64,000 bases of DNA, taken from contig NZ_CP092332.1 in assembly GCF_029866485.1 (NCBI RefSeq), positions 124,001 through 188,000 of the forward strand. Reading direction: 5' to 3'. Position numbers and translations under genes: made by a program. The number at the start of each line of letters is the position of its first letter. Position 1 is the first letter of the stretch. Positions 1-18,596 of this stretch are shown here, piece after piece. The notes beneath the pieces are model-generated. The model was not told where the DNA came from. It ran no database searches and saw only the letters and a list, made by a program, of their open reading frames with translations. The DNA is from Flavobacterium keumense. GTDB lineage: Bacteria; Bacteroidota; Bacteroidia; Flavobacteriales; Flavobacteriaceae.

Positions 1-3000
1 AATAAATGGATAGGTAGTGTAAAGGTCTGTATCACCAGCCGAATATGTTATACCATTGGCTTTTGAATAAACAGGGATAGTTAATCTTTTATATCTTATA
101 TCACCAACTTCATAATTCTTAATATCTATGGGTTTCGCAGAAATTTTAATATTTTCGCTAGAAATTCCACTCAAAAACCCACCATAGCCAGTGAAACTTG
201 GAGCAACTAAACTTAAATAATTTTCATTGCCTATTTTGGCCGTCCTAACACTAATTGGAGGTCCTGCTTCAGAACTTGCGACTGCCAAATTAGTCTTAAA
301 TGGAGTGAGATTACCATCATCATAATGTCTCGTTAACATAGGAATTGTATATTGATACTTATCCATATCCTCTAAAGAAATTATTGATGAGCTAAGATTC
401 CCAACATTTGTCAATCTAGACCCGTCACCTTCGAAATTTGTAGCTGTCAAGGTTCCTGTATTAGGTACTAAACTTAGTCTTTTACTCGCTACTTTTTGCG
501 ATAAATTTCCTGATGTTTCAGTTACAAAGGTAGGATATACAGGTTTATCATAAATTGTATCATTAGTAATTGCTATTTTAGTTGCATCAAGAGCTGATAC
601 ATTAGTCAATTTTGCCCCGTCACCTATGAAATTTGTAGCTGTCAAGGTTCCTGTTTTAGGTACAAAACTTAGTTTTGTACTTGCTATTTTTTGTGATAAA
701 TTTCCTTTTACATCAGTTACGAAGGTAGGATATACATTTTTATCAATAGTTGTATCATCAGTAATTGCTATTTTAGATGCATCAACAGCCGATATATTTG
801 TCAATTTAGACCCGTCACCTATGAAGATTTTAGCAGTTAAAGCTCCTGTTTTAGGTACAAAAGAAAGATTTTTTTCATCAGAAACATTTTGTTGTAAATT
901 TCCTTTAACTCCTGATACAAAAACAGGAAAATATGTTTTGTCAGAAGTTATTTCTTGAGTAATAGTTGCACTTTTTGCAGAAGTTGCAACAACATCTGTT
1001 AAATTACTTCCATTACCTTTTAAATATTCTGCTTTTAGTGTCCCTGTAAATTCAGGATTATTTAAATCTGCCTTTTTGTTCAATGCCGCTTGAGTCGATG
1101 TTGAAATGGGTTTGCTTGTATCGCTTGTGTTGTCAACATTGCCTAAGCCTACTTTTGCCTTATCTATTCCTGTAGCTATCTTTTCATTGGTTATAGCATT
1201 ATTAGCTATCGCAGGTGCATCTGCAGTACCTGTTAAATCGCCTTTCAATTGAATTATTCCCTTGTTAACAGTTGTAGCATCTACTACATTTTCAATAACT
1301 TTAGTATCAACATAGTCTCTAACTGCTTTCACGCTAGGATATTTATCATTAGATGTAGGGTCTGTAGAAATATCAATACTCTTATTTGCTATACTCTCCT
1401 TTAACTCCAATGCCGTTTGAGTAGCTATAGATAAAGGTTTGCTTTCATCAGATGTATTATCTACATTACCTAAATTAATATCAGTAGCAGTTAACAATAT
1501 ATTACCTGTCTTAGCGTTAACAGTTTGAACAGGTGCGTCAGGGCTTAAAAATTGAACCCAATTACTCAAAATAGTAGAGTCTGGATTAGACAAAATAAAA
1601 TTTTTTGATAAATCTGTTCTAACCGCAATACTACCTACAACCAAATTTGGTAAAGCTAACATTTCTAACTCGCTATTAACTACGTTAACAGATGAGAATG
1701 AAACTGAAGGAATTTGTGAGGATGGAATCTTTCCTGTTGCATCCAAACTAGCTACACCGCCATTGGCCCCTAACTTATTAGAATCTAATTTTAAATTCAA
1801 TGCATTTTGAGTAGCTATAGATATAGGCTTGTATTCATCAGATGTATTGTCTACTTTATCTAATCCTACTTTTGACTTATCTATTCCAGTAGCTATTTTG
1901 GAATTGCTTACAGCACCATTGGCTATCATAGGAGCATCTGCAGTACCTGTTAAATCGCCTTTTAATTTAATTATTCCCTTGTTAACAGTTGTAGCATCTA
2001 CTACATTTTCAATAACTTTAGTATCAACATAGTCTCTAACTGCTTTCACGCTAGGATATTTATCATTAGATGTTGGATCTGTAGAAATGTCAATACTCTT
2101 ATTAGCTATATTTTCCTTTAACTCCAATGCCGTTTGAGTAGCAATAGATAAAGGTTTACTTTCATCAGATGTATTATCTACATTCGCCAACCCAACTTTA
2201 GACTTGTCTATTCCTGGAGCTATCTTTTCATTTGTTATCACACCATTGCCTATAGTTGGTGCATCTGCAGTTCCAGACAAATCGCCTGCTAATTGAATTT
2301 TTCCTTTTACCGTAGGACTAGCTTCAACCACTCCTGAACTAATTTGTGTATCCACATAACTTTTAATCGCCTTTACACTTGGATATTTTTCGTCTGAAGC
2401 TTCATCTAGTGCAACATTGATACTTTTATTAGCCAAACTTTCTTTAGCCTCTAATGCAGTTTGAGTTGCAGTTGAAACTGGCTTGTTTAAATCGCTAGTG
2501 TTGTCAACATTATTCAAGCCTACCATTGCTCTATCTATACCAGATACTGTACCAGTAAAGGTTGGGGAGTCTGTATTTGCCTTTCCAGCTAATGCAGTTT
2601 GTGTAGCCTTAGAAACAGGCTTGTTTGTATCAGAAGTATTATCAACATTACCCAAGCCAATCATAGATTTTGTTATTCCTGATACAGTACCTGTAAAGGT
2701 TGGTGAAGCTAAATTCGCCTTTGAACTCAGTGCCGTTTGTGTAGCTGTCGAAATAGGCTTACTTAAATCGCTAGTATTGTCAACATTGCCTAAACCTACC
2801 TTTAACTTATCTATACCTGAAGCTATCTTAGCATTTGTTACAGCACCATCTGCTATCAGAGGGGCATCTGAGGTACCTGTCAAATCGCCTGCAAGTAGAA
2901 TTTTACCTTTTATATTTGAACTTGCATCTACAACTCCAGAACTAACTTGTTGATCCACATAATCTTTTATTGCTTTCACAGTTGGGTACTTCACATTTGA

Positions 3001-4617
3001 AGTGCCATCTGTTGAAATGTCAGAACTCTTATTGGTTAAGTCCTCTTTCAAATTTAAAGACACTTGTGTTAAAATTGAAACTGGCTTATCAATATCCGAA
3101 GTATTATCAATTTTATCTAAAAAAATATCTTTAGGAGTAAGTTGTACAATCCCTGTTTTTCCATTTACTGCTTGCACAGGCGCATCAGGACTCAATAATT
3201 CAACCCAACTGTCACGCAAAGTACTATTGGGATATGACAAAATATAATTTTTGGAAACATCTGTTCGAATCACTACAGTTCCAATAGAAGGATTAACCAA
3301 AGTTAGCATTTCTGTTTCATTATTTAATACTAAAACTGATGTAAAAGAAATAGGAGGAAGTTGTGTTGATGGAATTCTACCGTCTACATCTAACATTGCA
3401 ATACCATAACTAGAACCCAACAAATCAGTTCCTAATTTCATATCCAAAACTTGTTGAGTTTTGGCAGAAATTGGCTTATCAATGTCTGAAGTGTTATCTA
3501 CTTGATCTAATCCTACTTTTGCCTTGTCTATACCTGATGCTATCTTAGAATTGGTTACAACACCATCAGCTATTGTTGGCGCATCTGCGGCACCTGTTAG
3601 ATCACCTGCTAGTTGTATTTTACCCTTAACAGTAGAACTAGCATCAACAACTCCTGCACTTGATATAGCATCAACGTAACTCTTAACTGCTTTTACAGTT
3701 GGGTATTTATCATCAGAGGTAGCGTCTGTGGTAATATCGATACTCTTATTCGCCAAACCCTCTTTTAAAGCTAATTGAGTTTGTGTTTCTTTTGAAATGG
3801 GCTTGTTTAAATCGCTTGTGTTGTCAACATTATTCAAGCCTACCATTGATTTATCTATACCAGATACTGTCCCTGTAAAGGTTGGTGAAGCTAAATTAGC
3901 CTTTGCATCCAAGGCAGTTTGTGTTTCTTTTGAAATGGGCTTGTTTAAATCGCTTGTGTTGTCAACATTATTCAAGCCTACCATTGATTTATCTATACCA
4001 GATACTGTCCCTGTAAAGGTTGGTGAAGCTAAATTAGCCTTTGCATCCAAGGCAGTTTGAGTAGCTGTTGAAACAGGTTTGTTGGCATCAGATGTATTGT
4101 TAACTTGATCTAAAGACAAATTAGTTAAGGCCTCTAACTTTGTAGACGCTCCAGTTCCTCCATTTGAAATACCAACAACTCCAGAAACATTATTTGCAGT
4201 TATAGCATTAAATGCAAAAGGTGCAGAAGAAAAAGATTGCTCACTAATCAATTCAAAGGAACTACAAGCAGAAGTAATATCCAATTCAACCTTTAAATTT
4301 TTATCTGTTGTATTCCATCTAATTGAAGAAAAAGAGGAAGCAAAGCCCCCAATTTGGTTTCCTTTACCAATAGTAACATTGACTACACCATATTGATTCG
4401 TACTAGTCTTAATTATCTCTTGATATTCAAGAGCATTAGAAGAATCTGAAAAACTAAATCGCAAACAAATTTCAGAATTTATTAAGGGTGAAGATGATAC
4501 CTGTACACCTGGAAGTGTTTGGACATTTGGTCTAACAATAACTGCCTGATAAGCAATACCATTAGTTTGTGAATAGATTAGCGATGAAAATAGTAAGAAA
4601 AGTATATATTTTTTCAT
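1..4617 (-). CDS. Giant tail-fibre-like repeat protein, partial (C-terminus beyond window)
   Basis: The frame is open from an ATG at 4617 to the window edge, giving at least 1539 codons without a stop in the lines I read. The product begins with a signal peptide (MKKYILFLLFSSLIYSQ), then an N-terminal domain also found in its paralogue at 9347-16063 (GIAYQAVIVRPNVQTLPGV). The rest is built from repeats such as GLNNVDNTSDLNKPIS and SPTFTGTVSGI, the style of phage long tail fibres and Bacteroidota surface beta-strand-repeat proteins. It is the last visible gene of a module with the barrel at 4638-5273 and the T9SS-sorted protein at 5277-5768. The likely role is a secreted or surface-attached fibre, by inference only. 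The C-terminal export or anchoring signal is outside the window. Confidence 0.85.
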   Translation of the reverse strand, partial: MKKYILFLLFSSLIYSQTNGIAYQAVIVRPNVQTLPGVQVSSSPLINSEICLRFSFSDSSNALEYQEIIKTSTNQYGVVNVTIGKGNQIGGFASSFSSIRWNTTDKNLKVELDITSACSSFELISEQSFSSAPFAFNAITANNVSGVVGISNGGTGASTKLEALTNLSLDQVNNTSDANKPVSTATQTALDAKANLASPTFTGTVSGIDKSMVGLNNVDNTSDLNKPISKETQTALDAKANLASPTFTGTVSGIDKSMVGLNNVDNTSDLNKPISKETQTQLALKEGLANKSIDITTDATSDDKYPTVKAVKSYVDAISSAGVVDASSTVKGKIQLAGDLTGAADAPTIADGVVTNSKIASGIDKAKVGLDQVDNTSDIDKPISAKTQQVLDMKLGTDLLGSSYGIAMLDVDGRIPSTQLPPISFTSVLVLNNETEMLTLVNPSIGTVVIRTDVSKNYILSYPNSTLRDSWVELLSPDAPVQAVNGKTGIVQLTPKDIFLDKIDNTSDIDKPVSILTQVSLNLKEDLTNKSSDISTDGTSNVKYPTVKAIKDYVDQQVSSGVVDASSNIKGKILLAGDLTGTSDAPLIADGAVTNAKIASGIDKLKVGLGNVDNTSDLSKPISTATQTALSSKANLASPTFTGTVSGITKSMIGLGNVDNTSDTNKPVSKATQTALAGKANTDSPTFTGTVSGIDRAMVGLNNVDNTSDLNKPVSTATQTALEAKESLANKSINVALDEASDEKYPSVKAIKSYVDTQISSGVVEASPTVKGKIQLAGDLSGTADAPTIGNGVITNEKIAPGIDKSKVGLANVDNTSDESKPLSIATQTALELKENIANKSIDISTDPTSNDKYPSVKAVRDYVDTKVIENVVDATTVNKGIIKLKGDLTGTADAPMIANGAVSNSKIATGIDKSKVGLDKVDNTSDEYKPISIATQNALNLKLDSNKLGANGGVASLDATGKIPSSQIPSVSFSSVNVVNSELEMLALPNLVVGSIAVRTDLSKNFILSNPDSTILSNWVQFLSPDAPVQTVNAKTGNILLTATDINLGNVDNTSDESKPLSIATQTALELKESIANKSIDISTDPTSNDKYPSVKAVRDYVDTKVIENVVDATTVNKGIIQLKGDLTGTADAPAIANNAITNEKIATGIDKAKVGLGNVDNTSDTSKPISTSTQAALNKKADLNNPEFTGTLKAEYLKGNGSNLTDVVATSAKSATITQEITSDKTYFPVFVSGVKGNLQQNVSDEKNLSFVPKTGALTAKIFIGDGSKLTNISAVDASKIAITDDTTIDKNVYPTFVTDVKGNLSQKIASTKLSFVPKTGTLTATNFIGDGAKLTNVSALDATKIAITNDTIYDKPVYPTFVTETSGNLSQKVASKRLSLVPNTGTLTATNFEGDGSRLTNVGNLSSSIISLEDMDKYQYTIPMLTRHYDDGNLTPFKTNLAVASSEAGPPISVRTAKIGNENYLSLVAPSFTGYGGFLSGISSENIKISAKPIDIKNYEVGDIRYKRLTIPVYSKANGITYSAGDTDLYTTYPFI
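3779..4054 (-). repeat. 138-bp tandem duplication inside the giant gene
   Basis: Two adjacent copies (3779-3916 and 3917-4054) appear identical by eye. Each adds 46 residues of the NVDNTSD/FTGTVSGI repeat in frame. This suggests recent unequal recombination within the coding region. Confidence 0.85.
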
Positions 4618-4637
4618 AATTTATTTATATTGTTTAA

Positions 4638-5273
4638 TTATTGAATACTGTTTTTTATATTAAAAATTACACCTAAACAAATACGATTTGTTGATATAGA
4701 AAATTTTTCTGAACCATTTAGTGTTGGATTAAAACTATATATGTAATCATAACCCAAACTAAATCCTCCATAATCAGATGCAAAATATTTGACCTGAAGT
4801 CCTGCAACTCCACCAATAAAAATTCCCTTAAATGAATTTGTCTTTTTCAAATCAAAAATTTCACTACCCAATTCTTGCTTTCCATGAATCATCTTAGAAA
4901 TAGTAGTTCCTAATTTCAAATCCAATTTGATTTTCTTTGAATTTAGTACTTGTAATAAAAGTGAATTATCGAACCCTACATATAATGTTTTCCAATGCAC
5001 TAACAAATTTTTGTTATAAACAGATGCATTAAACTCATCAAATGAAAACTCAGAATCATAGACTATTGGAAATTTGTTTAATTTGTATTTTAGTAGTTTA
5101 GAATACCCCATAGAATATGTATTTCCAAACTCAGAACTTAAATTTGAGGCCGTACTACCAAACTCATTGGTATACGAATAATTTGTTAAATTTTTACCTG
5201 TTTTAATAAAAATTGATTTCTGAGAATGTGCTCCAATACACATCAATAAAAAAAAATAAAGAGAATATTTCAT
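4638..5273 (-). CDS. Predicted outer-membrane beta-barrel protein of the fibre module
   Basis: A 211-residue product with an N-terminal signal peptide (MKYSLYFFLLMCIGAHSQ). The body is rich in alternating aromatic and polar strands and ends in a typical terminal strand (ISTNRICLGVIFNIKN), which suggests a small barrel of 8 to 10 strands. It is clearly paralogous to 16081-16743 (shared SIFxKxGxNLTxYSYTNE and GYxxxxxFNPxLNxSEKFSI patterns) and more weakly to 7461-8081. It lies 4 bp after the T9SS-sorted gene and 20 bp before the giant fibre gene, so the three are probably co-transcribed. A SprF-like helper role for the neighbouring giant protein is possible, but no PorP/SprF signature was recognised. 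Confidence 0.7.
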   Translation of the reverse strand: MKYSLYFFLLMCIGAHSQKSIFIKTGKNLTNYSYTNEFGSTASNLSSEFGNTYSMGYSKLLKYKLNKFPIVYDSEFSFDEFNASVYNKNLLVHWKTLYVGFDNSLLLQVLNSKKIKLDLKLGTTISKMIHGKQELGSEIFDLKKTNSFKGIFIGGVAGLQVKYFASDYGGFSLGYDYIYSFNPTLNGSEKFSISTNRICLGVIFNIKNSIQ

Positions 5274-5276
5274 AAA

Positions 5277-5768
5277 TTAAAGTTTTAAAAGTTTATTAGT
5301 GTAATTAAAATTCGAAGAGGAAAGTTTAATGATATACTTCCCAGAAACAAGAATTTGAGAAAGGTCTAATGACATCAATTTCCCAATAATTTTTTTATCC
5401 CCTTTATATATAACTCTACCAGATATATCAAATATTTCTAATGTAATAACTTCATTAAAATATTTAGTAAACTCAAAATTTAAAATTGTTTCAACTGGAT
5501 TCGGATACATTATTGTAATCGAATTATCTAATGAATTTGGCAGAGTCAAAACTTTAGAATTATTCCAATTCAATGATTGTTGAAATCCTTGTTGAACATA
5601 ATAATTTGAACTTGTATGACTGGCGAAAACACCAAACTGACCAATCGTCTGACTTACATATGTCCCATTGGATGTTTGCATACTGCTTCCAAGTGAAGAG
5701 ATTACCTGATGATGCAATACCTGAGAATGAGAAGCGATGTAAAATAAAAACATGATAATTCTGCACAT
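5277..5768 (-). CDS. Small secreted protein with T9SS type A sorting domain
   Basis: The 163-residue product has a short N-terminal hydrophobic segment (IIMFLFYIASHSQ) and a central segment LHHQVISSLGSSM...YVSQTIGQFGV...YVQQGFQQSL seen in many Bacteroidota T9SS cargo proteins. The C-terminal ~75 residues match the type A sorting domain: MYPNPVETILNFEF, then IFDISGRVIYKG, then GKYIIKLSS, ending in NKLLKL. It should cross the outer membrane through the T9SS, whose core genes gldKLMN lie at 37374-41965. It is the first gene of the left module and is paralogous to 16747-17247. Function beyond export is unknown. Confidence 0.8.
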   Translation of the reverse strand: MCRIIMFLFYIASHSQVLHHQVISSLGSSMQTSNGTYVSQTIGQFGVFASHTSSNYYVQQGFQQSLNWNNSKVLTLPNSLDNSITIMYPNPVETILNFEFTKYFNEVITLEIFDISGRVIYKGDKKIIGKLMSLDLSQILVSGKYIIKLSSSNFNYTNKLLKL

Positions 5769-7460: not shown

Positions 7461-8081
7461 TTAAAAATACAACCCAAACTGAATTTGATGATTTAAAAAT
7501 GATAATTTTTCATTTGATGAATTATCAAATTTAATTACTTTGTTAAATGAATACCCAATACTTACCGAAGTGTTTTTAAAATAGGAATACTTAAAATCAA
7601 TCCCAAATGATGGAGCAATAAAAATACCTTTAAATTCATTTTCATTAGCCAGATTAAACCCAACCCCATCAATAGCCTGATTCCCAGAAAGTAATGTTGA
7701 AAATCCAATGCCTACTTTAGGTATTATATTCAAATCATTATCTGGAAAAAGAGAATAATACAAGATGCCCTGTGTTCCCAAAAACTGGGTATCCCATGTG
7801 TATTTATTAACTACATTCCCTCCAGTAGCATTAAAATCATTTAATACAACAGAAGCTGAATAAAAAAAACGGTAATAATTACAACGACAATGATTAAAGT
7901 AATGTAAATAGCCAAACTCAAAAAAGTTGCCAGCCCCACTCCTTAAAGTGGGATTAGGTAAACCCTTACTGTTCAAATAATCAAATGTTGTAAAATTTTT
8001 ACCAGTTTTAAAATAAAATTCTTGTGAAAAAACTGCATTGTAAAGTAAGAACACAATTACAAAAACTCTAACTTTATACAT
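7461..8081 (-). CDS. Predicted outer-membrane beta-barrel protein, third paralogue
   Basis: A 206-residue product with a signal peptide (VFVIVFLLYNAVFSQ) and the same plan as the barrels at 4638 and 16081: EFYFKTGKNFTTFDYLN near the N-terminus, the NEFKGIFIAPSFGI segment two thirds along, and a terminal strand LNHQIQFGLYF. It carries an unusual CRCNYYRFF patch near residue 65. It starts 6 bp after the PI-PLC gene and is the last gene of the minus-strand run 17247 to 7461, so it is probably translated from the same message. Function unknown; outer-membrane location is inferred from the strand pattern. Confidence 0.65.
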   Translation of the reverse strand: MYKVRVFVIVFLLYNAVFSQEFYFKTGKNFTTFDYLNSKGLPNPTLRSGAGNFFEFGYLHYFNHCRCNYYRFFYSASVVLNDFNATGGNVVNKYTWDTQFLGTQGILYYSLFPDNDLNIIPKVGIGFSTLLSGNQAIDGVGFNLANENEFKGIFIAPSFGIDFKYSYFKNTSVSIGYSFNKVIKFDNSSNEKLSFLNHQIQFGLYF

Positions 8082-8087
8082 AAAGGA

Positions 8088-9320
8088 TTATTTAAAATTA
8101 TTATTATATACAGCTCTTATTAAATCATTTGAAGGAAAATCAAAAAAAGTTATTCCAAATCCTACATTATATTTTAACTGTTTGGAACCATTTAAATAAA
8201 TCGTTTTTGAAGCATCATAATTTTTGATTATTTCATTTAAAAAAAACATATTCATACTTTTAGAATAATCATTAGGAGTAGTAACAACCCCAGACATTGA
8301 AATAAAATTAAACGAAAAAGGAGTTTTTGTATTTATCCCTCTAAAAGTATTTTTTGCCATTTGAATTGCGAGCTCATTTCGTTTAACCATAAATTCATTA
8401 ATCAATCCCTTTTTAACTTTTTCGTCTTCGTATTTGGATGAGTACCATGTGTTTTTATAATAATCCTGAATTAGTAAAAGAGGATTAGTTGTAGGTAGTA
8501 ATTGAACCTTTTTCAAATTATCTCCATAAAACCCTACAGATACAGAATTAATTTTAGAGAAAGACTTCGGAAACTTAGAGTAATCATAAAATAATAATGC
8601 TTTGCCTCTTAAATCACTAATTCGAATTTTATTATTTACATTGATATTCTTAGTAAACATAGTAGCATATTCCTTGTTAATTTCTTGTGCAATTAAAAAT
8701 TGCGTTAAAAAATTTTCAAGTTTAACATTATTCTTGTAGGTATTGTACTCATTTAAAAAAGACACATTCTCTTTTCTATAATCTGGTAAATCACATTCTG
8801 CACCAGTGTCTCTAGAAATCTTTATTAATACTGTTTCTGTAGGATTGACTTTTAAAAATTGTTTTACATTAAGTAAAACATCATTAAAACTTGTAGCACT
8901 AATAAATGTATGGCTCAATTTCAAATTAAAGTTATAAACAGAACCGGTCCCTTGAGGTGTAACGCGAATGTCTAAAAAACGAATCCCTGCATTTAATTGA
9001 GCGCTTATTGACAAATCTTGACATTTTGCTAAAGGCATTAAATCATGTGTGCCAGAATCATGAGTGGCTGGTATTGAAACATCTCTAATATCTATGTCAT
9101 CCGTTAAAGATTCCATCCAGTTATTACTGCCTATATTCTTAATAGGTATTCTGCTTTTAAAAGTTAAACCTACAACACTAGTTGTATTTTGCCCGGAAGG
9201 AACTTTCCCATCTTCAGTCAAGTTGTCATTTGAACACGAGTACTGCCCTAAAAACAAAGCAAAAAATAGTCCAAAATAAAAAGGTTTATTGAAAGAATAA
9301 TTATATGTCTTTATATTCAT
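8088..9320 (-). CDS. PI-PLC X-domain phosphodiesterase, predicted lipoprotein
   Basis: A 410-residue protein. The N-terminal hydrophobic segment ends in a lipobox-like FLGQYSC (Cys29), suggesting a lipid-anchored enzyme. The catalytic X-domain signature is present: SIPATHDSGT with His87, GIRFLDIRV with Asp117 and Arg119, and KLSHTF with His137. These match the two catalytic histidines and the Asp/Arg pair of bacterial phosphatidylinositol-specific phospholipase C. Family members cleave glycerophosphoinositol-type lipids or GPI-like anchors; the substrate here is unknown. It lies 26 bp after the giant fibre gene and 6 bp before a barrel gene, so it appears to be an inserted member of the surface module. 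The left module has no counterpart within the window. Confidence 0.85.
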   Translation of the reverse strand: MNIKTYNYSFNKPFYFGLFFALFLGQYSCSNDNLTEDGKVPSGQNTTSVVGLTFKSRIPIKNIGSNNWMESLTDDIDIRDVSIPATHDSGTHDLMPLAKCQDLSISAQLNAGIRFLDIRVTPQGTGSVYNFNLKLSHTFISATSFNDVLLNVKQFLKVNPTETVLIKISRDTGAECDLPDYRKENVSFLNEYNTYKNNVKLENFLTQFLIAQEINKEYATMFTKNINVNNKIRISDLRGKALLFYDYSKFPKSFSKINSVSVGFYGDNLKKVQLLPTTNPLLLIQDYYKNTWYSSKYEDEKVKKGLINEFMVKRNELAIQMAKNTFRGINTKTPFSFNFISMSGVVTTPNDYSKSMNMFFLNEIIKNYDASKTIYLNGSKQLKYNVGFGITFFDFPSNDLIRAVYNNNFK

Positions 9321-9346
9321 TTTTAAATTAATTTAAATTAAAAAAA

Positions 9347-12300
9347 TTAAGGCACAGCCCAAAAATCCGTTAAATAATACTCTGCGTCATTCAAATAATT
9401 TGTATATGTTATAGTACCTGCACTACCAGCAGTAATGGTTTGCATGCCTACTTTTGTAATTGACAATACCCTAGTCGTTGCATTGTATGCAACTTGAATA
9501 TTATATCTTCTAAATTGAGTAGTTGAATCCATTGTACCTGTAGTAGGACATTCTAATGTGTATAAAGAATTGGAATTTCTTAAATCAATAAACATCCAAG
9601 CAGTACCAAATCCTCCAAATCTAACTCTAACTCTAAGAAAATTATATTTAGTTTCAATATCTGGCAAAGTCCCAGGTAATGCTCCGGTAATATTAGGTAT
9701 TTCAGTGGAAGAAAATGATCTAGGAACGGCGCCTTTATCATTAAGTGCTGTTTGTGTGGCTGTTGAAATGGGTTTGCTTGCATCAGAGGTATTATCTACA
9801 CTATCAAGTCCAACCGATGACTTATCAAGTGTTTGCCAACTCTTATCACCACGCCAATATTGAGTGTTAGTTCCTGCACTAATAGTACTTTCTTTTCCGT
9901 TTAAAGTTGTTTGCAAATCATTACCCCCAAGCTTTATTTGTGGTGTTATAACTTGCCCGTTTGTATCAACAGCAAATTTTAAAACTTGAGAATTACTCTC
10001 TGTGTATAAGAAATAATTAGCAGCACTATTATCGATAACGCCACTAGTTCCTCCACTCCTCAAATTCCATAGAACATTTGTATAGTTGGCATTGATACCT
10101 CCTCTTAAAAACGTTGATGGTAATCTTGTGTTTGCTAAAGTTCCTGAAGTTATATTAGTAGCATTGGTAGCATCTACATTTGGAACATTCCCAAGCCCTA
10201 CCATAGAATTAGTTATCCCCGATACAGTTCCTGTAAAGTTTGGTGAAGCAAGTGGAGCTGCTCCTAAATTTGTCAAAGCTGCCGATGCTGTTGTTGCTCC
10301 TGTTCCTCCTCTCGCAATTGGAAGCGTTCCTGTAGAAATATTACCAGCATTAATAGCAGTTATACCTGAACCGTTTCCACTTATAGTCCCTGTAAAAGTT
10401 GGAGAGGCAAGTGGTGCTGCTCCTAAATTTGTCAAAGCTACCGATGCTGTTGTAGCCCCTGTTCCTCCTCTTGCTATTGCTAATGTCCCTGTTCCAATAT
10501 TTGAAGCATTCAAATTGGTTAATGAAGATCCTATACCAGTAAAAGATACAGCAGTAAGATTACCTGTCGAGGGTATAAATGTTAAATTGGTAATTGCCAC
10601 ATGTGGTTTCACGTTACCAAAAGTAGCAGTTGCAAAAATTGGATATGTCGTATTTGACGTAATACTATTATCCTCAACTTTTACATTAGTGGCATTTGTT
10701 GCAGATACATTACTCAAACTAGAACCATCTCCACTAAAGTAATTTGCTGTTACTGTACCTGTAAAGGTTGGCGAAGCAAGTGGAGCGGCCCCTAAATTTA
10801 CTAAAGCTGACGATGCTGACATTGCTCCTGTTCCTCCACTGTTAATTGGCATTATTCCAGCTACAATTTGGGATGCATCAATTTTCAATAAGGTACCATC
10901 TCCACTAAATTTTGTAGCAGTTAATGTTCCCGAAAAAGGTTCAAATTTAAGTGAAGAATTTCCATTCAATATCTGATTATTACCATTAGAACTAGATAAA
11001 AAAGGAATATAATTCGTTCCAAAAGCTGTATTTTGAGTTACATTAATTTTAGATGCATTCAAATTACTCAAAGATGACCCATCTCCGCTAAAGTTAGTTG
11101 CTGTTACTGTTCCTGCAAAAGTTGGAGAAGCTAAATTAGCCTTTGTATCTAATGCTGTTTGTGTGGCTGTGGAAATAGGTTTGTTGGCATCAGATGTATT
11201 ATCCACATCGCTTAATCCAACTTTTGACTTGTCTATTCCTGATGCTATCTTGGCATTGGTTACAGCTCCATCAGCAATTGTTGGTGCATCTGCGGTACCC
11301 GTTAAATCACCAGCTAATTGGATTTTTCCCTTAACGGTTGAACTTGCATCTACAACTCCTGAACTAATTTGTGTATCCACATAACTTTTAATTGCCTTAA
11401 CACTTGGATATTTCTCATCTGAAGCAGCATCAGATGATACATCAATACTTTTGTTTGCCAAACTCTCTTTTAATGCTAATTGAGTTTGAGTAGCTGTTGA
11501 AACGGGTTTGCTTGCATCAGATGTATTATCCACATTACTCAAACCTACCATAGATTTTGTTATCCCTGACACGGTACCAGTGAAACTTGGAGAAGCAAGT
11601 GGTGCAGCTCCTAAATTTGTTAAAGCTGCCAATGCTGTTGTTGCTCCTGTTCCTCCGTTAGCAATGGCTACTGTTCCTGATGCAATATTTGAAGCATTTA
11701 AACTAGTTAATAAAGAACCGTCGCCACTAAATTTTGTTGCAGACAAGGTTCCTGTAGAAGGTATAAATGCTAATCTACTCGCGCCTATTTTAAAAGGTAA
11801 ATTTCCAGATACTGTACTAAAAAATGGAATATAATTAGGTGAAGTCGAAGTTTGATCAATATTAAATGTAGCAGTAGCAGCATTTACATTAGTTAAAGAT
11901 GATCCATTACCACTAAAATTAGTTGCAGTTACAGTTCCTGTAAATGTTGGTGAAGCTAAATTAGCCTTTGCATTCAAGGCAGTTTGAGTAGCTGTGGAAA
12001 CGGGTTTGCTTAAATCGCTTGTATTATCCACATCGCTTAAACCAACTTTTGACTTGTCTATTCCTGATGCTATCTTGGCATTGGTTACAGCTCCATCAGC
12101 AATTGTTGGTGCATCTGCGGTACCCGTTAAATCACCAGCTAATTGGATTTTTCCCTTAACGGTTGAACTTGCATCTACAACTCCTGAACTAATTTGTGTA
12201 TCCACATAACTTTTAATTGCCTTAACACTTGGATATTTCTCATCTGAAGCAGCATCAGATGATACATCAATACTTTTGTTTGCCAAACTCTCTTTTAATG

Positions 12301-15300
12301 CTAATTGAGTTTGAGTAGCTGTTGAAACGGGTTTGCTTGCATCAGATGTATTATCCACATTACTCAAACCTACCATAGATTTTGTTATCCCTGACACGGT
12401 ACCAGTGAAACTTGGAGAGTCCAAATTAGCCTTTGCATCCAAGGCAGTTTGAGTAGCTGTGGAAACAGGTTTGCTTAAATCACTTGTATTATCAACATTA
12501 CCTAAATTAATATCACCAGCAGTTATCAATACATTAGCTGTTTTACCATTAACGGTTTGAACAGGAGCATCTGGATTTAACAACTCTATCCAGTTACTCA
12601 AAACTGAAGTAGGTGAAGCTGATAATACATAATTCTTTGAATTATCGGTTCGTACGGCAATACTACCTACAACCAAATTTGATAACGCTAACATTTCTGA
12701 TTGGCTATTAACCACGTTAACAGAAGAAAATGATACTGAAGGAATTTGTGAGGATGGAATTTTTCCTGTTGAATCCAAACTAGCCACACCTCCATTAGCC
12801 CCTAACTTGTTTGAATCTAATTTTAAATTCAATGCATTTTGAGTAGCCGTTGAAACAGGTTTGCTTGCATCAGATGTATTATCCACATTACTCAAACCAA
12901 TCATAGATTTTGTAATCCCTGACACGGTACCTGTAAAACTTGGAGAGTCCAAATTAGCCTTTGCATCCAAAGCAGTTTGAGTTAGCGTTGAAATAGGTTT
13001 GCTTGCATCAGAGGTATTATCCACATTATTCAAGCCTATCATAGATTTTGTTATCCCTGACACGGTACCTGTGAAATTTGGAGAGTCCAAATTAGCCTTT
13101 GCATTCAAGGCAGTTTGAGTAGCTGTGGAAACGGGTTTGCTTAAATCGCTTGTATTATCCACATCGCTTAAACCAACTTTTGACTTGTCTATTCCTGATG
13201 CTATCTTGGCATTGGTTACAGCTCCATCAGCAATTGTTGGTGCATCTGCGGTACCCGTTAAATCACCAGCTAATTGGATTTTTCCCTTAACGGTTGAACT
13301 TGCATCTACAACTCCTGAACTAATTTGTGTATCCACATAACTTTTAATTGCCTTAACACTTGGATATTTCTCATCTGAAGCAGCATCAGATGATACATCA
13401 ATACTTTTGTTTGCCAAACTCTCTTTTAATGCTAATTGAGTTTGAGTAGCTGTTGAAACGGGTTTGCTTGCATCAGATGTATTATCCACATTACTCAAAC
13501 CTACCATAGATTTTGTTATCCCTGACACGGTACCAGTGAAACTTGGAGAGTCCAAATTAGCCTTTGCATCCAAGGCAGTTTGAGTAGCTGTGGAAACAGG
13601 TTTGCTTAAATCACTTGTATTATCAACATTACCTAAATTAATATCACCAGCAGTTATCAATACATTAGCTGTTTTACCATTAACGGTTTGAACAGGAGCA
13701 TCTGGATTTAACAACTCTATCCAGTTACTCAAAACTGAAGTAGGTGAAGCTGATAATACATAATTCTTTGAATTATCGGTTCGTACGGCAATACTACCTA
13801 CAACCAAATTTGATAACGCTAACATTTCTGATTGGCTATTAACCACGTTAACAGAAGAAAATGATACTGAAGGAATTTGTGAGGATGGAATTTTTCCTGT
13901 TGAATCCAAACTAGCCACACCTCCATTAGCCCCTAACTTGTTTGAATCTAATTTTAAATTCAATGCATTTTGAGTAGCCGTTGAAACAGGTTTGCTTGCA
14001 TCAGATGTATTATCCACATTACTCAAACCAATCATAGATTTTGTAATCCCTGACACGGTACCTGTAAAACTTGGAGAGTCCAAATTAGCCTTTGCATCCA
14101 AAGCAGTTTGAGTTAGCGTTGAAATAGGTTTGCTTGCATCAGAGGTATTATCCACATTATTCAAGCCTATCATAGATTTTGTTATCCCTGACACGGTACC
14201 TGTGAAATTTGGAGAGTCCAAATTAGCCTTTGCATTCAAGGCAGTTTGAGTAGCTGTGGAAACGGGTTTGCTTAAATCGCTTGTATTATCCACATCGCTT
14301 AATCCAACTTTTGACTTGTCTATTCCTGATGCTATCTTGGCATTGGTTACAGCTCCATCAGTAATTGTTGGTGCATCTGCGGTACCCGTTAAATCACCTG
14401 CCAATTGAATTTTTCCCTTAACGGTTGAACTTGCATCTACAACTCCTGAACTAATTTGTGTATCCACATAACTTTTAATTGCCTTAACACTTGGATATTT
14501 CTCATCTGAAGCAGCATCAGATGATACATCAATACTTTTGTTTGCCAAACTCTCTTTTAATGCTAATTGAGTTTGAGTAGCTGTTGAAACGGGTTTGCTT
14601 GCATCAGATGTATTATCCACATTACTCAAACCTACCATAGATTTTGTTATCCCTGACACGGTACCAGTGAAACTTGGAGAGTCCAAATTAGCCTTTGCAT
14701 CCAAGGCAGTTTGAGTAGCTATTGAAACAGGTTTGCTTGCATCAGAGGTATTATCAACATTGCCTAAACCTACCTTAGACTTGTCTATTCCACTAGCTAT
14801 CTTGACATTGGTTACAGCACCATCAGCTATCAAAGGAGCAGCTGCTGTTCCTGTTAGATCACCTGCTAATTGAATTTTACCCTTAACATTGGAACTAGCA
14901 TCCACAACTCCTGAACTTGATTGTGAATCAACATAACTCTTAATCGCTTTTACTGTTGGGTATTTCAAATCCGAATTACCATCTACTATTACATTAACAC
15001 TTTTATTACTAATACTCTCCTTTGCGGCTAATAAAGTTTGTGTAGCTTTAGAGATAGGCTTGTTTGCATCTGAAGTGTTATCAACTTGATCTAAGCCAAC
15101 TTTTGACTTGTCTATTCCTGATGCTATCTTGGCATTGGTTACAGCCCCATCAGCAATTATTGGCGCATCTGCTGTTCCTGTTAAATCGCCAGCTAATTGT
15201 ATTTTACCCTTAACAGTTGAACTTGCATCTACAATTCCTGAACTGGATATAGCATCAACGTAACTCTTAACTGCTTTTACAGTTGGGTATTTAACATCAG

Positions 15301-16063
15301 AAGTAGCGTCTATTGCAACATCAACACTTTTATTTGCTGAATTCTCCTTAACATCTAATGCTATTTGCGTAGCCGTTGAAACTGGCTTATTTACATCGGA
15401 AGTATTATCTACTTGATCTAAGCTTACCATAGATTTTGTTATACCTGATACAGTACCTGTAAATGTTGGTGAAGCTAAATTAGCCTTTGCATCCAAGGCA
15501 GTTTGTGTTTCTTTTGAAATGGGCTTGTTTAAATCGCTTGTGTTGTCAACATTATTCAAGCCTAAATTTGTTCGTGCTTCCATTGTTGTTGTGGCTCCTG
15601 TACCACCATTCTCAATTGCTACTACTCCTGTAACATTATTTGCAGTAATTGCATTAAATGCAAAAGGAGCAGATGAAAAGGATTGTTCACTAATCAATTC
15701 AAATGAAGTACAAGACGAGGTAATGTCTAATTCAACCTTCAAATTTTTATCTGTTGTATTCCAGGCGATTGCAGTAAATGAACTAGCATATCCACCAATC
15801 TGTGTCCCTTTACCTATCGTAACATTTACAACTCCATACTGATTTGTAATAGTCTTAATAACTTCTTGATACTCAAGACTATTTGATGAATCAGTAAAAC
15901 TAAATTTCAAACAAATATCAGAATTAATTAAAGGAGAAGAGGGGATATCTACTCCTGGTAATGTTTGAACATTTGGTCTAACAATAACCGCCTGATATGC
16001 TATTCCCTTGGATTGAGAATACAATACCGAAGTAAAAAAAATAAAAAATAAAATTTTTTTCAT
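9347..16063 (-). CDS. Giant tail-fibre-like repeat protein, complete (2238 residues)
   Basis: The product starts with a signal peptide (MKKILFFIFFTSVLYSQ) and an N-terminal domain of about 140 residues (KGIAYQAVIVRPN to SSAPFAFNAIT), a common leader domain of secreted Bacteroidota repeat proteins. It then carries dozens of copies of GLxxVDNTSDxxKPxSTATQ, SPTFTGTVSGI, IQLAGDLTGTADAP and NGGTGATT, as in phage tail fibres. The final ~110 residues (VPRSFSSTEIPNITG onward) form a non-repeated C-terminal domain ending YYLTDFWAVP. I see no T9SS sorting domain and no intramolecular chaperone motif. It is probably an extended surface or secreted fibre. It follows its barrel gene by 17 bp. Internally it holds a 1131-bp tandem duplication, so length may vary between isolates. 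Confidence 0.85.
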   Translation of the reverse strand: MKKILFFIFFTSVLYSQSKGIAYQAVIVRPNVQTLPGVDIPSSPLINSDICLKFSFTDSSNSLEYQEVIKTITNQYGVVNVTIGKGTQIGGYASSFTAIAWNTTDKNLKVELDITSSCTSFELISEQSFSSAPFAFNAITANNVTGVVAIENGGTGATTTMEARTNLGLNNVDNTSDLNKPISKETQTALDAKANLASPTFTGTVSGITKSMVSLDQVDNTSDVNKPVSTATQIALDVKENSANKSVDVAIDATSDVKYPTVKAVKSYVDAISSSGIVDASSTVKGKIQLAGDLTGTADAPIIADGAVTNAKIASGIDKSKVGLDQVDNTSDANKPISKATQTLLAAKESISNKSVNVIVDGNSDLKYPTVKAIKSYVDSQSSSGVVDASSNVKGKIQLAGDLTGTAAAPLIADGAVTNVKIASGIDKSKVGLGNVDNTSDASKPVSIATQTALDAKANLDSPSFTGTVSGITKSMVGLSNVDNTSDASKPVSTATQTQLALKESLANKSIDVSSDAASDEKYPSVKAIKSYVDTQISSGVVDASSTVKGKIQLAGDLTGTADAPTITDGAVTNAKIASGIDKSKVGLSDVDNTSDLSKPVSTATQTALNAKANLDSPNFTGTVSGITKSMIGLNNVDNTSDASKPISTLTQTALDAKANLDSPSFTGTVSGITKSMIGLSNVDNTSDASKPVSTATQNALNLKLDSNKLGANGGVASLDSTGKIPSSQIPSVSFSSVNVVNSQSEMLALSNLVVGSIAVRTDNSKNYVLSASPTSVLSNWIELLNPDAPVQTVNGKTANVLITAGDINLGNVDNTSDLSKPVSTATQTALDAKANLDSPSFTGTVSGITKSMVGLSNVDNTSDASKPVSTATQTQLALKESLANKSIDVSSDAASDEKYPSVKAIKSYVDTQISSGVVDASSTVKGKIQLAGDLTGTADAPTIADGAVTNAKIASGIDKSKVGLSDVDNTSDLSKPVSTATQTALNAKANLDSPNFTGTVSGITKSMIGLNNVDNTSDASKPISTLTQTALDAKANLDSPSFTGTVSGITKSMIGLSNVDNTSDASKPVSTATQNALNLKLDSNKLGANGGVASLDSTGKIPSSQIPSVSFSSVNVVNSQSEMLALSNLVVGSIAVRTDNSKNYVLSASPTSVLSNWIELLNPDAPVQTVNGKTANVLITAGDINLGNVDNTSDLSKPVSTATQTALDAKANLDSPSFTGTVSGITKSMVGLSNVDNTSDASKPVSTATQTQLALKESLANKSIDVSSDAASDEKYPSVKAIKSYVDTQISSGVVDASSTVKGKIQLAGDLTGTADAPTIADGAVTNAKIASGIDKSKVGLSDVDNTSDLSKPVSTATQTALNAKANLASPTFTGTVTATNFSGNGSSLTNVNAATATFNIDQTSTSPNYIPFFSTVSGNLPFKIGASRLAFIPSTGTLSATKFSGDGSLLTSLNASNIASGTVAIANGGTGATTALAALTNLGAAPLASPSFTGTVSGITKSMVGLSNVDNTSDASKPVSTATQTQLALKESLANKSIDVSSDAASDEKYPSVKAIKSYVDTQISSGVVDASSTVKGKIQLAGDLTGTADAPTIADGAVTNAKIASGIDKSKVGLSDVDNTSDANKPISTATQTALDTKANLASPTFAGTVTATNFSGDGSSLSNLNASKINVTQNTAFGTNYIPFLSSSNGNNQILNGNSSLKFEPFSGTLTATKFSGDGTLLKIDASQIVAGIMPINSGGTGAMSASSALVNLGAAPLASPTFTGTVTANYFSGDGSSLSNVSATNATNVKVEDNSITSNTTYPIFATATFGNVKPHVAITNLTFIPSTGNLTAVSFTGIGSSLTNLNASNIGTGTLAIARGGTGATTASVALTNLGAAPLASPTFTGTISGNGSGITAINAGNISTGTLPIARGGTGATTASAALTNLGAAPLASPNFTGTVSGITNSMVGLGNVPNVDATNATNITSGTLANTRLPSTFLRGGINANYTNVLWNLRSGGTSGVIDNSAANYFLYTESNSQVLKFAVDTNGQVITPQIKLGGNDLQTTLNGKESTISAGTNTQYWRGDKSWQTLDKSSVGLDSVDNTSDASKPISTATQTALNDKGAVPRSFSSTEIPNITGALPGTLPDIETKYNFLRVRVRFGGFGTAWMFIDLRNSNSLYTLECPTTGTMDSTTQFRRYNIQVAYNATTRVLSITKVGMQTITAGSAGTITYTNYLNDAEYYLTDFWAVP
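11958..14219 (-). repeat. 1131-bp tandem duplication (with a partial third copy) in the giant fibre gene
   Basis: Copies at 11958-13088 and 13089-14219 look identical in the parts compared, with at most scattered substitutions. A third copy begins at 14220 and diverges at about 14718. The unit encodes 377 residues and keeps the reading frame. Part of the unit (about 11200-11560) recurs upstream, so recombination between repeats appears frequent. Collapse or expansion during assembly is a caveat. Confidence 0.85.
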
Positions 16064-16080
16064 AGTAATTAGAATATTGA

Positions 16081-16743
16081 TTAATTGATTTTCTGACTGT
16101 CATTGGTTTTCTGACTGTCCTTTTTAAGGTTATAATACACTCCAAACCAAACACGATTGGAAGTAATCGAAAATTTTTCTGAAGCGTTGAGTGAAGGATT
16201 AAACCCATTTAATCGATCGTAACCTATACTTAACCCTCCCGTTTCAGATACTGAATACTTTGCTTGAATACCTATAACTCCTGTCAAAAAAACACCTTTG
16301 AAAGAATCTGTATTTTTGATATCATAAATCTGATTATCTAGTACTTGTTTGCCATAAATTATTGTAGAAATATTAGCACCAAGTTTAAAATCCAATTTAA
16401 AATTTTTGGGTTTTAGTACGGTAATGAGCATTGAATTATTAACCCCTGCATAAAGAGTTCTCCAATTAACTAAAAGGTTTTTGTTATAAACCGAAGAATT
16501 AAACTCATCTAAAGCAATTTCGCAATTGTAAAACAAAGGAAATTTAGTAAGTTTAGGTTTCAACTGCTTGGAATAACCAAATGAATATGAATTTCCAAAA
16601 TCTGAACTTATATTATTTGCTTTGATATTTAATTCATTGGTATAGGAGTATTTTGTTAAATTTCTTCCTGATTTCAAGAAAATAGAATTTTGAGAAAAAG
16701 AAAAAAGAGAGAATAAAAAAAATGAAAAATAGATATACCTCAT
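16081..16743 (-). CDS. Predicted outer-membrane beta-barrel protein of the right fibre module
   Basis: A 220-residue product with a signal peptide (YIYFSFFLFSLFSFSQ). It is close to the 4638-5273 product along its full length: SIFLKSGRNLTKYSYTNE, SSVYNKNLLVNWRTLYAGV, SFKGVFLTGVIGIQAKYS, and a terminal strand SNRVWFGVYYNL. A C-terminal tail repeats SQKTNDSQKIN. It starts 3 bp after the T9SS-sorted gene and ends 17 bp before the giant fibre gene. The fixed order sorted protein, barrel, fibre in both modules argues that the barrel acts with the fibre, for example in its export or anchoring; that is inference. Confidence 0.7.
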   Translation of the reverse strand: MRYIYFSFFLFSLFSFSQNSIFLKSGRNLTKYSYTNELNIKANNISSDFGNSYSFGYSKQLKPKLTKFPLFYNCEIALDEFNSSVYNKNLLVNWRTLYAGVNNSMLITVLKPKNFKLDFKLGANISTIIYGKQVLDNQIYDIKNTDSFKGVFLTGVIGIQAKYSVSETGGLSIGYDRLNGFNPSLNASEKFSITSNRVWFGVYYNLKKDSQKTNDSQKIN

Positions 16744-16746
16744 AAT

Positions 16747-17247
16747 TTATAATTTTAAAAATTTATTAGTGTATTTATATTTAGAATTCATAGAAGAAAG
16801 TTGAATTAGGTAATATCCTGGAGAAAAAATTCCCGAAAGTTTTAATTGAGCTAATCTATCTATCGGTGTTATAATACCACTGTAAATTACTCTACCAGAA
16901 ATATTAAAAATTGATACACTCAAATCACCATTAATATCTTTAGAAAATTCAAAATTAATATCAGTATCAACTGGGTTTGGGAACATTTTAGTAACAACAC
17001 TTTCAGATTCAATATCTTTTTTAGAAACACTCAAACTGTTGTTACCAGCCAACGATTGCTGAAACCCTTGCTGAACATAAAATTTTGGATTTGCAAAACT
17101 TGACAATGCCCCAATTTGACCAATTGTCTGACTTACATAAATACCCCCAGGGGTAGTAAAGCTAGTTCCCATCGAAGAAATTGCCTGATGATGCAATCCT
17201 TGAGAATAAGAATTTGAAAAAAATAAAAGAAGTAAGAGTTTTTTCAT
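16747..17247 (-). CDS. Small secreted protein with T9SS type A sorting domain
   Basis: A 166-residue product with a signal peptide (MKKLLLLLFFSNSYSQ), the LHHQAISSMGTSF...YVSQTIGQIG...YVQQGFQQSL segment, and a C-terminal type A sorting domain: MFPNPVDTDINFEFS, IFNISGRVIYSG, PGYYLIQLSS, ending NKFLKL. It is the first gene of the right module and the paralogue of 5277-5768. It should be secreted by the T9SS and attached to, or released from, the cell surface. The short pre-sorting region leaves little room for an enzyme, so a structural or assembly role seems more likely. Confidence 0.8.
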   Translation of the reverse strand: MKKLLLLLFFSNSYSQGLHHQAISSMGTSFTTPGGIYVSQTIGQIGALSSFANPKFYVQQGFQQSLAGNNSLSVSKKDIESESVVTKMFPNPVDTDINFEFSKDINGDLSVSIFNISGRVIYSGIITPIDRLAQLKLSGIFSPGYYLIQLSSMNSKYKYTNKFLKL

Positions 17248-17453
17248 AAATCAATACAATTAATACATTAATGTGCAAAGGAATACAAAGTATTGTGACA
17301 ACTTGTATTAGTAAAAAAAATATTAAAAAACAGTTACTGATTTTAAGAAATTAGTGAAAATAAAAACATATTCTAACCTATCTGCAAACAAGTATAATGC
17401 TCATAATAAGTAGAAGTAATAGTTAGGGAAAAAGAAAAATAACAATGCAGGTT

Positions 17454-18596
17454 TTAACACTTTTTAATGATTTTTCTATTTCGATAGAACTCAAAAGGAG
17501 AAACACCAGTTAAATCTTTAAAATTCACTAAAAACGGATTATACGATGAAAAGCCAACGTGCTTAGATAAGGTGACTAATTTATTTGACTTCAAGTAGCC
17601 CGAATTAATTAATTCAACAGCATCATATATTCTAACCATTTTCTTGTAATCATTAAATGAAACTTTGCAATAAAATTTAAAAATAAAATCTAAATAGTAC
17701 TTAGGTATTCCAATTTCAAGAGATAAATTATATAATGAATAATCCGGGTTGCGTAAAGCAAAGTCGATTAAAACAATTTTCTCAATTTGTTCTATATAAT
17801 CACTAATATTATTCATTATCCTTTCATTAAGCATCCTTTCTTTTGGATTCATAGCGTCAATGTCAATTTTAACTTCCCAAACACTTGTTATACATAATTT
17901 TGAAACAGATGATGATTCAATTCTTTTGAAGAGAGATGGATTTCCATAAAAAATAAATGGAGAAAAAATAATTTTAAAATATATAGTTGAATATAAGATT
18001 AGCAAAGCAATTTCGTAGTAAAAATTACATCTTTCTTTTCCTTTAATTATACTCTCAATTTTTAAGGAATAAATTATAATCAAATACAAAATTTCAATTA
18101 CAAATAAAAATTTAGTCCAAGAACTAATCATTGAGAAATCATAAGTAAATGGGTGATTTTTTTTAATCCCCCAATAATTGTTTTTTAATAACAAGAAAGT
18201 TTTATATATGTAGTAAGTAGAATAAGATAACATTAACGAAAACAACAAAATATTTTCAATAGAAAATAAAAAATTAAGCAAAACTACTGGTAAAATGAAG
18301 TGTTGAAAATCGTTTTTCTCTCCTATTTTTAAATTTTTAAATAATTTTTCAAAATACAAATACAATGTTGGCATCAAAATCAAAATTATTTGATAATAAT
18401 TAAAATTCGGATAATAAATGTTCTGAAATAAGTCTAAATTGCTTAAGCCATGAAAGATTAAGTATAAACTTGCAAAACTAAATGTAAAAAGTAGATATAC
18501 ATTTAATACTCTATTTGAACTAAACCAAATAGACATGACAAAAGTTGTGATTAAACAAATAGAACCGAGAATTAGAAATAAGATATGAATGTACAT
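17454..18596 (-). CDS. AraC-family regulator with multi-pass membrane N-terminus
   Basis: A 380-residue product. Residues 1 to about 225 contain several hydrophobic segments (IHILFLILGSICLITTFVM, YLLFTFSFASLYLIFHGL, FILPVVLLNFLFSIENILLF, FLFVIEILYLIIIYSL), predicting a membrane-embedded sensor. Residues from about 265 form an AraC-type double helix-turn-helix, with the second motif VTLSKHVGFSSYNPFLVNFK and the typical tail LTGVSPFEFYRN. Similar membrane-anchored AraC proteins are common in Flavobacteria. It is on the same strand and 206 bp upstream of the fibre module, so it is a good candidate for controlling it. The signal sensed is unknown. Confidence 0.8.
   Translation of the reverse strand: MYIHILFLILGSICLITTFVMSIWFSSNRVLNVYLLFTFSFASLYLIFHGLSNLDLFQNIYYPNFNYYQIILILMPTLYLYFEKLFKNLKIGEKNDFQHFILPVVLLNFLFSIENILLFSLMLSYSTYYIYKTFLLLKNNYWGIKKNHPFTYDFSMISSWTKFLFVIEILYLIIIYSLKIESIIKGKERCNFYYEIALLILYSTIYFKIIFSPFIFYGNPSLFKRIESSSVSKLCITSVWEVKIDIDAMNPKERMLNERIMNNISDYIEQIEKIVLIDFALRNPDYSLYNLSLEIGIPKYYLDFIFKFYCKVSFNDYKKMVRIYDAVELINSGYLKSNKLVTLSKHVGFSSYNPFLVNFKDLTGVSPFEFYRNRKIIKKC

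Follow-up and report, generated by a model that had tools for sequence, protein, structure and literature searches.

A window of 64,000 nucleotides from Flavobacterium keumense was analysed, corresponding to genome positions 124001-188000 of an assembly that consists of a single contig (2.54 Mb, 98.6% complete). Within it lie two contiguous three-gene modules, all genes on the minus strand, in which a type IX secretion system (T9SS) type A sorted protein of ~165 aa (T) is followed by a barrel of ~210 aa (B) and a giant fibre (F). The intergenic gaps are 3 and 17 bp in module 1, and 3 and 20 bp in module 2. The parts of the two modules, in window coordinates, are as follows.

16747-17247, minus strand: T1, small T9SS type A sorted protein; N-terminal part LHHQ..SQTIGQ..QGFQQS plus a C-terminal domain (CTD); TIGR04183 37.2 bits (cut-off 23)
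16081-16743, minus strand: B1, outer-membrane beta-barrel; 8 strands in an OmpA/NspA-like model
9347-16063, minus strand: F1, fibre of 2238 aa; apparent signal peptide, N-domain like that of the mosaic adhesive trimer (MAT) fibres of Bdellovibrio bacteriovorus, then 19 repeats of the VDNTSD type and a tip, without a CTD
15617-16063, minus strand: F1 signal peptide and conserved N-domain; NF053851 (Bdello_MAT_N) E 4.3e-7, 29.9 bits for a 165-aa piece (cut-off 60)
11958-14302, minus strand: tandem duplication within the F1 shaft, in frame; the shaft matches itself exactly over 1214 bp at a period of 1131 bp (377 codons)
5277-5768, minus strand: T2, small T9SS type A sorted protein of module 2; TIGR04183 43.8 bits
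4638-5273, minus strand: B2, barrel of module 2; 56% identity to B1
1-4617, minus strand, continuing outside the window as far as genome position 123032: F2, module 2 fibre; full length 1861 aa

The F2 frame has no internal stop, and a further fibre, F3, follows in the genome. The first-pass annotation had reported the order sorted protein, barrel, giant protein twice in the window with short gaps, and all of its coordinates hold. Searches of the whole genome seeded with B1, the F1 N-terminus and T1 returned seven barrels, seven fibre N-domains and six T proteins (one additional T match was weak and confined to the CTD), which make up six T-B-F modules and a seventh fibre. The four further complete modules, whose neighbourhoods were read, are located at genome positions 982801-989550, 2076958-2081739, 522277-527820 and 2157180-2160126. 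These modules, the seventh fibre (outside the window) and a third barrel in the window (7461-8081) go beyond what had been annotated. The reading frames are open in all seven fibres.

When genome contigs were scanned with nothing but the fibre N-domain, 43 loci (L numbers below) were obtained, from 39 genomes as counted by record title; among the 10 loci in other genomes most similar by N-domain, 7 were from Flavobacterium. With T and B models built solely from the F. keumense copies, both genes were found at 35 of the 43 loci and the exact contiguous order T-B-F at 33, in 27 of which T and B overlap by 4 bp. As a control, T or B stood immediately upstream of only 3 of 430 other genes at the same 43 loci. 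Two loci depart in order (L053, T-B-x-F; L079, B-T-F), L057 has B without T at a contig edge, and neither T nor B was found at L063, L066 (contig edge) and L074, where only a 95-aa N-domain frame is left. Across 40 modules, T, B and N-domain distances correlated with one another (r 0.81-0.86, 0 of 2000 permutations), to which common descent contributes, and among the six F. keumense paralogues T-F and B-F distances were also correlated (r 0.83, 2 of 720 permutations, and r 0.73, 11 of 720, respectively), as expected of genes that are co-inherited. The earlier suggestion that the three genes behave as a unit is thus upheld: because the order occurs in six modules of this genome and at 33 of 43 loci elsewhere, T-B-F is, judged by gene order and similarity, a unit in many Bacteroidota, beyond chance.

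All six T proteins scored above the TIGR04183 cut-off (35.4-49.8 bits, against 23), and their C-terminal domains match solved CTDs by sequence. Since the whole genome gave 13 type A sorting-domain matches, members of the fibre modules would be close to half of its type A proteins. SprA, the T9SS translocon component searched for, is encoded at genome positions 312327-319373 (TIGR04189, 2780 bits). The fibres themselves had no match to TIGR04183 (type A) or TIGR04131 (type B) in any of the seven, the end of F2 included. F1 was accordingly described correctly at first pass as a protein of 2238 residues with a signal peptide (apparent in F1 and F2, as judged by eye) and no T9SS CTD. Two tests had been set there beforehand, for a sorting domain in the fibre and for conservation of the gene order; no sorting domain was found, and the order is conserved. 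As F has no outer-membrane sorting signal of its own, the adjacent T would supply this signal in trans. Tandem fibre genes behind a single T or T-B set were seen at L053, L119, L143 and L008, and one such set may serve several fibres.

Directly behind the fibre signal peptide sits a conserved, beta-rich domain of ~130 aa, for which an AlphaFold2 model of the F1 copy gave a beta-sandwich (pLDDT 80, pTM 0.71). Scanned as 165-aa pieces, the N-domains of all seven fibres matched NF053851 (best E 2.9e-7), and a genome search with this model at E <= 0.01 hit only those seven places (best 20.6 bits). We consider the N-domain a distant relative of the MAT N-domain and, by the curated score, not a formal member of that family. 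Behind it, the shaft repeats match PHROG tail families, and F1 without its N-domain matched 575 of 50,697 phage records. The repeats had previously been likened to those of phage long tail fibres, which holds for the shaft and fails for the N-domain: that of F1 had no match in the 50,697 phage records or in PHROGs, the N-domain alignment found no relative in a viral-contig scan, and the N-domain model found none among viral models at E <= 0.001. The likeness to phages is thus restricted to the shaft, and perhaps some tips. It would fit a reading in which the giants are prophage or phage-derived tail-fibre remnants, that is, phage structural genes acquired by the chromosome. We give this reading very little credence, given the apparent signal peptides, an N-domain unmatched in the phage and viral sets, the conserved non-phage partners and the open frames in seven of seven fibres. 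As for an outright prophage tail fibre, an N-terminal virion-attachment part shared with phages was not found, with the neighbouring genes not scanned for phage functions. In its domain make-up, F reads as a chimera of a constant bacterial N-domain base, a phage-tail-fibre-like shaft and exchangeable tips.

Whether the shaft is trimeric was considered from domain matches. The fibres match DUF5907, phage-fibre, collagen and S74 models at the sequence level; collagen and S74 domains are typical of trimers, and these matches are only suggestive of a trimeric shaft. Among eight distant fibres scanned, collagen was found in 3 and S74 in 3, and the homologues listed (the 120 best from each of two protein searches, out of 215 and 7238) bear Lcl_C, S74 and other domains. 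The candidate of a trimeric autotransporter (type Vc) was rejected, there being no YadA anchor among the Pfam matches of F1, the window part of F2 and F3-F7. The TANFOR model (TIGR02542) had no match in the fibres either. The tandem duplication in the F1 shaft is very recent, and recombination there could alter the length of the fibre; the longest fibres seen reach 2657 aa (L047).

Comparison of the last 130 residues of 33 fibres pointed to exchange of the tips. By T, B and N-domain, L050 groups with F. keumense module 5, L052 and L056, and only 1 of the 6 tip pairs within this lineage matches. The L050 tip is instead 75-78% identical to those of L042 and L046, with N-domains only 52-53% identical. 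Likewise, the tip of module 7 is 44-48% identical to the tips of L068, L069 and L071, where the N-domains share 39-41%. Tips are retained within some lineages, such as module 6 with L044 and L051. On this comparison, tips are swapped between modules on a constant base. Downstream of the module 4 fibre there are more secreted-looking genes (L009:14514-17731, plus strand), two of which, encoding a PA14 domain and an S74 chaperone domain respectively, are possible accessory tips.

The structure model of B1 is an 8-stranded, OmpA-like barrel of ~210 aa. PorV and PorP have more strands than this. With 8 strands in the model, and thus probably too narrow a pore, B is unlikely to be the export channel for the fibre. 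None of the seven F. keumense barrels matched TIGR03519 (PorP/SprF), in agreement with the first-pass remark that they lack this signature, and there were no POTRA or TpsB matches in B. Two-partner secretion, which is defined by a TpsB-type 16-strand barrel with POTRA domains, was therefore rejected for a ~210-aa barrel modelled with 8 strands. Weak similarity, far below cut-off, to the TDE1717-family outer-membrane barrel model was seen for the barrels L010:10647-11261 and L011:8704-9336.

A genuine T9SS type B protein gene with a PorP/SprF gene (184 bits to TIGR03519) directly downstream is found just left of the window (L008:2190-6446, minus strand; genome positions 112190-116446); a further long open reading frame (ORF) upstream of it may belong to the same gene region. 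With such a pair next door, and with adhesin and barrel genes also paired in the modules, a gliding adhesin system of the SprB/SprF kind could be envisaged, in which the small barrel is the adhesin shuttle. This parallel, drawn at first pass, falls on both of its defining features, as F has neither a type A nor a type B CTD and the barrels, B1 being 8-stranded, have no PorP/SprF match; by its N-domain, F is nearer to MAT. We attach hardly any weight to this alternative.

The pairing of F with T extends further than that with B. A broader N-domain profile was positive in 27 of 148 genomes of the phylum at E <= 1e-10; 35 regions were taken around 36 places outside F. keumense, and 36 fibre ORFs were read in 34 of them. 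A small T9SS-CTD protein was encoded immediately upstream, on the same strand, of 23 of these distant fibres, which span six families. Among the other 13, two are in T-B-F modules, two are second fibres behind T-F, four have a T-like gene immediately downstream and one has it two genes downstream. The background was 5 of 271 other genes with a small CTD protein immediately upstream, and each of the five adjoins a module or an interrupted fibre: two are B genes, two follow the T-like genes of L122 and L124, and one is a piece of the interrupted L139 fibre. The binomial chance of at least 23 of 36 at a 5% rate is ~1e-21, although a single family of genomes accounts for 11 of the 23. None of the 36 distant fibres (including one truncated by the end of its contig) matched a type A CTD model built in this analysis, and precomputed Pfam annotation gave neither PF18962 nor PF13585 in 240 listed homologues (120 top-ranking ones of 215, and 120 of 7238). 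At L139 (G128:C34:2469-2750), the fibre N-domain is broken by a stop and the small T9SS-CTD protein still stands directly upstream.

Apart from a chance signal-peptide match, B was matched in 2 of the 35 distant regions, the rest of those genomes not having been searched for it. B is found in the flavobacterial form and some relatives, and T-F looks like the older core to which B was added. This bears on the alternative that B is the chief partner, exporting and holding F alone, with T an independent surface protein in a shared operon. B does lie between T and F at 33 of 43 loci, B-F distances correlate, and L055 is a B-F locus without T. However, the distant T-F pairs have no B match in the regions read, T is kept where B is missing at L047, L049 and L054, and the B model has 8 strands; we therefore regard B as chief partner as quite improbable. 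The first-pass idea that both T and the barrel serve in display or export is in this respect only half sustained: T is tightly linked to fibres over a wide range, while B is a poor candidate for the export channel.

The reading we prefer, with slightly better than even confidence, is that these modules display MAT-like trimeric fibres, with T acting in trans for their T9SS export or anchoring and B as their seat. F would cross to the periplasm by its signal peptide and trimerise. The constant N-domain would be the docking end and the phage-like shaft a spacer, and the C-terminal tip would bind the target, as in adhesion. The short N-terminal part of T would bind the N-domain of F, and the T CTD would either take the complex through SprA/PorV or hold the fibre at the cell surface. 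In the flavobacterial form, the 8-stranded B would bind and seat the fibre base in the outer membrane. SprA was found in 117 of the 148 genomes and in 27 of the 27 fibre-positive ones (one-sided p 0.0008). Type A substrates are described as using a shared PorV shuttle, and type B substrates a cognate PorP/SprF (PMC12618676, in excerpt). T9SS substrates are also proposed to emerge from the translocon with their CTD ahead (PMC10994853, in excerpt), which would suit a small CTD protein in the lead with the fibre trailing via its N-domain. A more specific version, in which T is a dedicated T9SS adaptor that draws the CTD-less trimeric fibre through SprA CTD first, B is the seat of the N-domain, and the whole is a widespread Bacteroidota route, is put forward tentatively, and we lean against it.

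Several observations weigh against trimeric fibre display with T acting in trans. The NF053851 scores are below the curated 60-bit cut-off, as seen above for the F1 piece (29.9 bits), and with full-length fibres the model gave no match for F1 at E <= 1, an E of 0.015 for F2 and none for F3-F7 at E <= 0.1. Loci with T but not B (L047, L049, L054) or B but not T (L055) occur, and 4 of the 36 distant fibres have no T-like neighbour. Among the six F. keumense paralogues the T-B correlation was not significant (r 0.50, 71 of 720 permutations), and all three r values are influenced by modules 1 and 2, which are the closest pair. The association with SprA is weak, as 19 of the 20 listed of the 31 SprA-negative genomes belong to one family. 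A trimer of a 2238-aa protein would be an unusual T9SS passenger. Finally, to our knowledge, T9SS is not expected in the phylum of Bdellovibrio, yet MATs reach the surface there, so T would not be essential to the whole superfamily.

One alternative is that T is an anchor only: F would exit by another route, and T, separately delivered by T9SS, would clamp the fibre base together with B. Bdellovibrio displays MAT fibres with no T9SS partner described in the excerpted text of PMC10769870, and type A proteins are reported, in the part of PMC9143113 consulted, to be anchored to anionic lipopolysaccharide. The module, however, shows no other export route for F, and B is probably too narrow to be one; on balance we think an anchor-only role somewhat unlikely.

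The remaining genes around the modules include the following, in window coordinates.

17454-18596, minus strand: AraC-type regulator with a hydrophobic N-terminal part, upstream of module 1; HTH_18 E 3.6e-5, below cut-off
8088-9320, minus strand: putative lipoprotein with a PI-PLC X-like domain, after F1; PF00388 E 6.8e-8, above cut-off; lipobox read by eye
7461-8081, minus strand: B8, third paralogue of the barrel, downstream of the PI-PLC-like gene; E 9.3e-20 in the B1-seeded genome search

Eight of the 43 loci have a divergently placed homologue of the regulator alongside, the one at L048 being a weak match, and an AraC-type regulator is also present beside module 5. HTH_18 was found in all seven such regulators tested (six loci and module 5), in five of them above cut-off. 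The T gene of module 6 is divergent from four tandem paralogous small regulators, Crp/FNR-like as named by eye (L011:10406-12832, plus strand). The putative lipoprotein and B8 are located between modules 1 and 2, with B8 beginning 6 bp after the lipoprotein gene (together 7461-9320, minus strand). Given this position of B8, the barrel family may partner other surface proteins too.

MAT fibres are known from a predator, and according to the excerpted text of PMC10769870, the surface element that binds the MAT N-domain awaits identification. With the two recurrent genetic partners described here, this anchor question can be tested directly in a phylum amenable to genetics. Should T carry the export signal of the fibre in trans, this would be a systematic exception to the recognition of T9SS cargo by its own CTD. 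In one of two protein searches, 7238 of 7997 candidates scored were N-domain relatives, and very many Bacteroidota surface proteins, many of them currently annotated as hypothetical, would acquire a probable function.

Among known systems, the MAT fibre of Bdellovibrio bacteriovorus (Caulton et al. 2024, PMC10769870, as excerpted) appears to be the closest described kind because of the N-domain homology. Both have a signal peptide, a constant beta-rich N-domain, a shaft, diverse C-terminal tips and several paralogues per genome. The fibres described here differ in their Bacteroidota host, their length of up to 2657 aa and their below-cut-off hidden Markov model scores, and constant neighbours T and B were met only on the Bacteroidota side, as far as the excerpt of that paper goes. 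The SprB-SprF system of T9SS type B adhesins (PMC12618676, as excerpted) likewise combines an adhesin gene with an outer-membrane barrel gene and involves T9SS; in our modules, by contrast, the CTD is found not on the adhesin but on a small type A protein of its own, and the barrel has 8 strands and resembles OmpA. The TANFOR polymorphic toxins, which also occur in Bacteroidota, are a precedent for linking proteins to T9SS through their neighbours, its use having been suggested from nearby-encoded T9SS substrates (PMC7073777, as excerpted); in our modules, F is a fibre and the CTD is borne by a small protein family that is dedicated and directly adjacent. Shaft repeats, and possibly tip folds, are shared with phage tail fibres of the VDNTSD/DUF5907 repeat type, but F has a signal peptide, a bacterial N-domain and the partners T and B. 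The system is thus best described as MAT-like fibres accompanied by an OmpA-like barrel and by a small protein that would serve as T9SS partner in trans; the genetic adjacency is strong.

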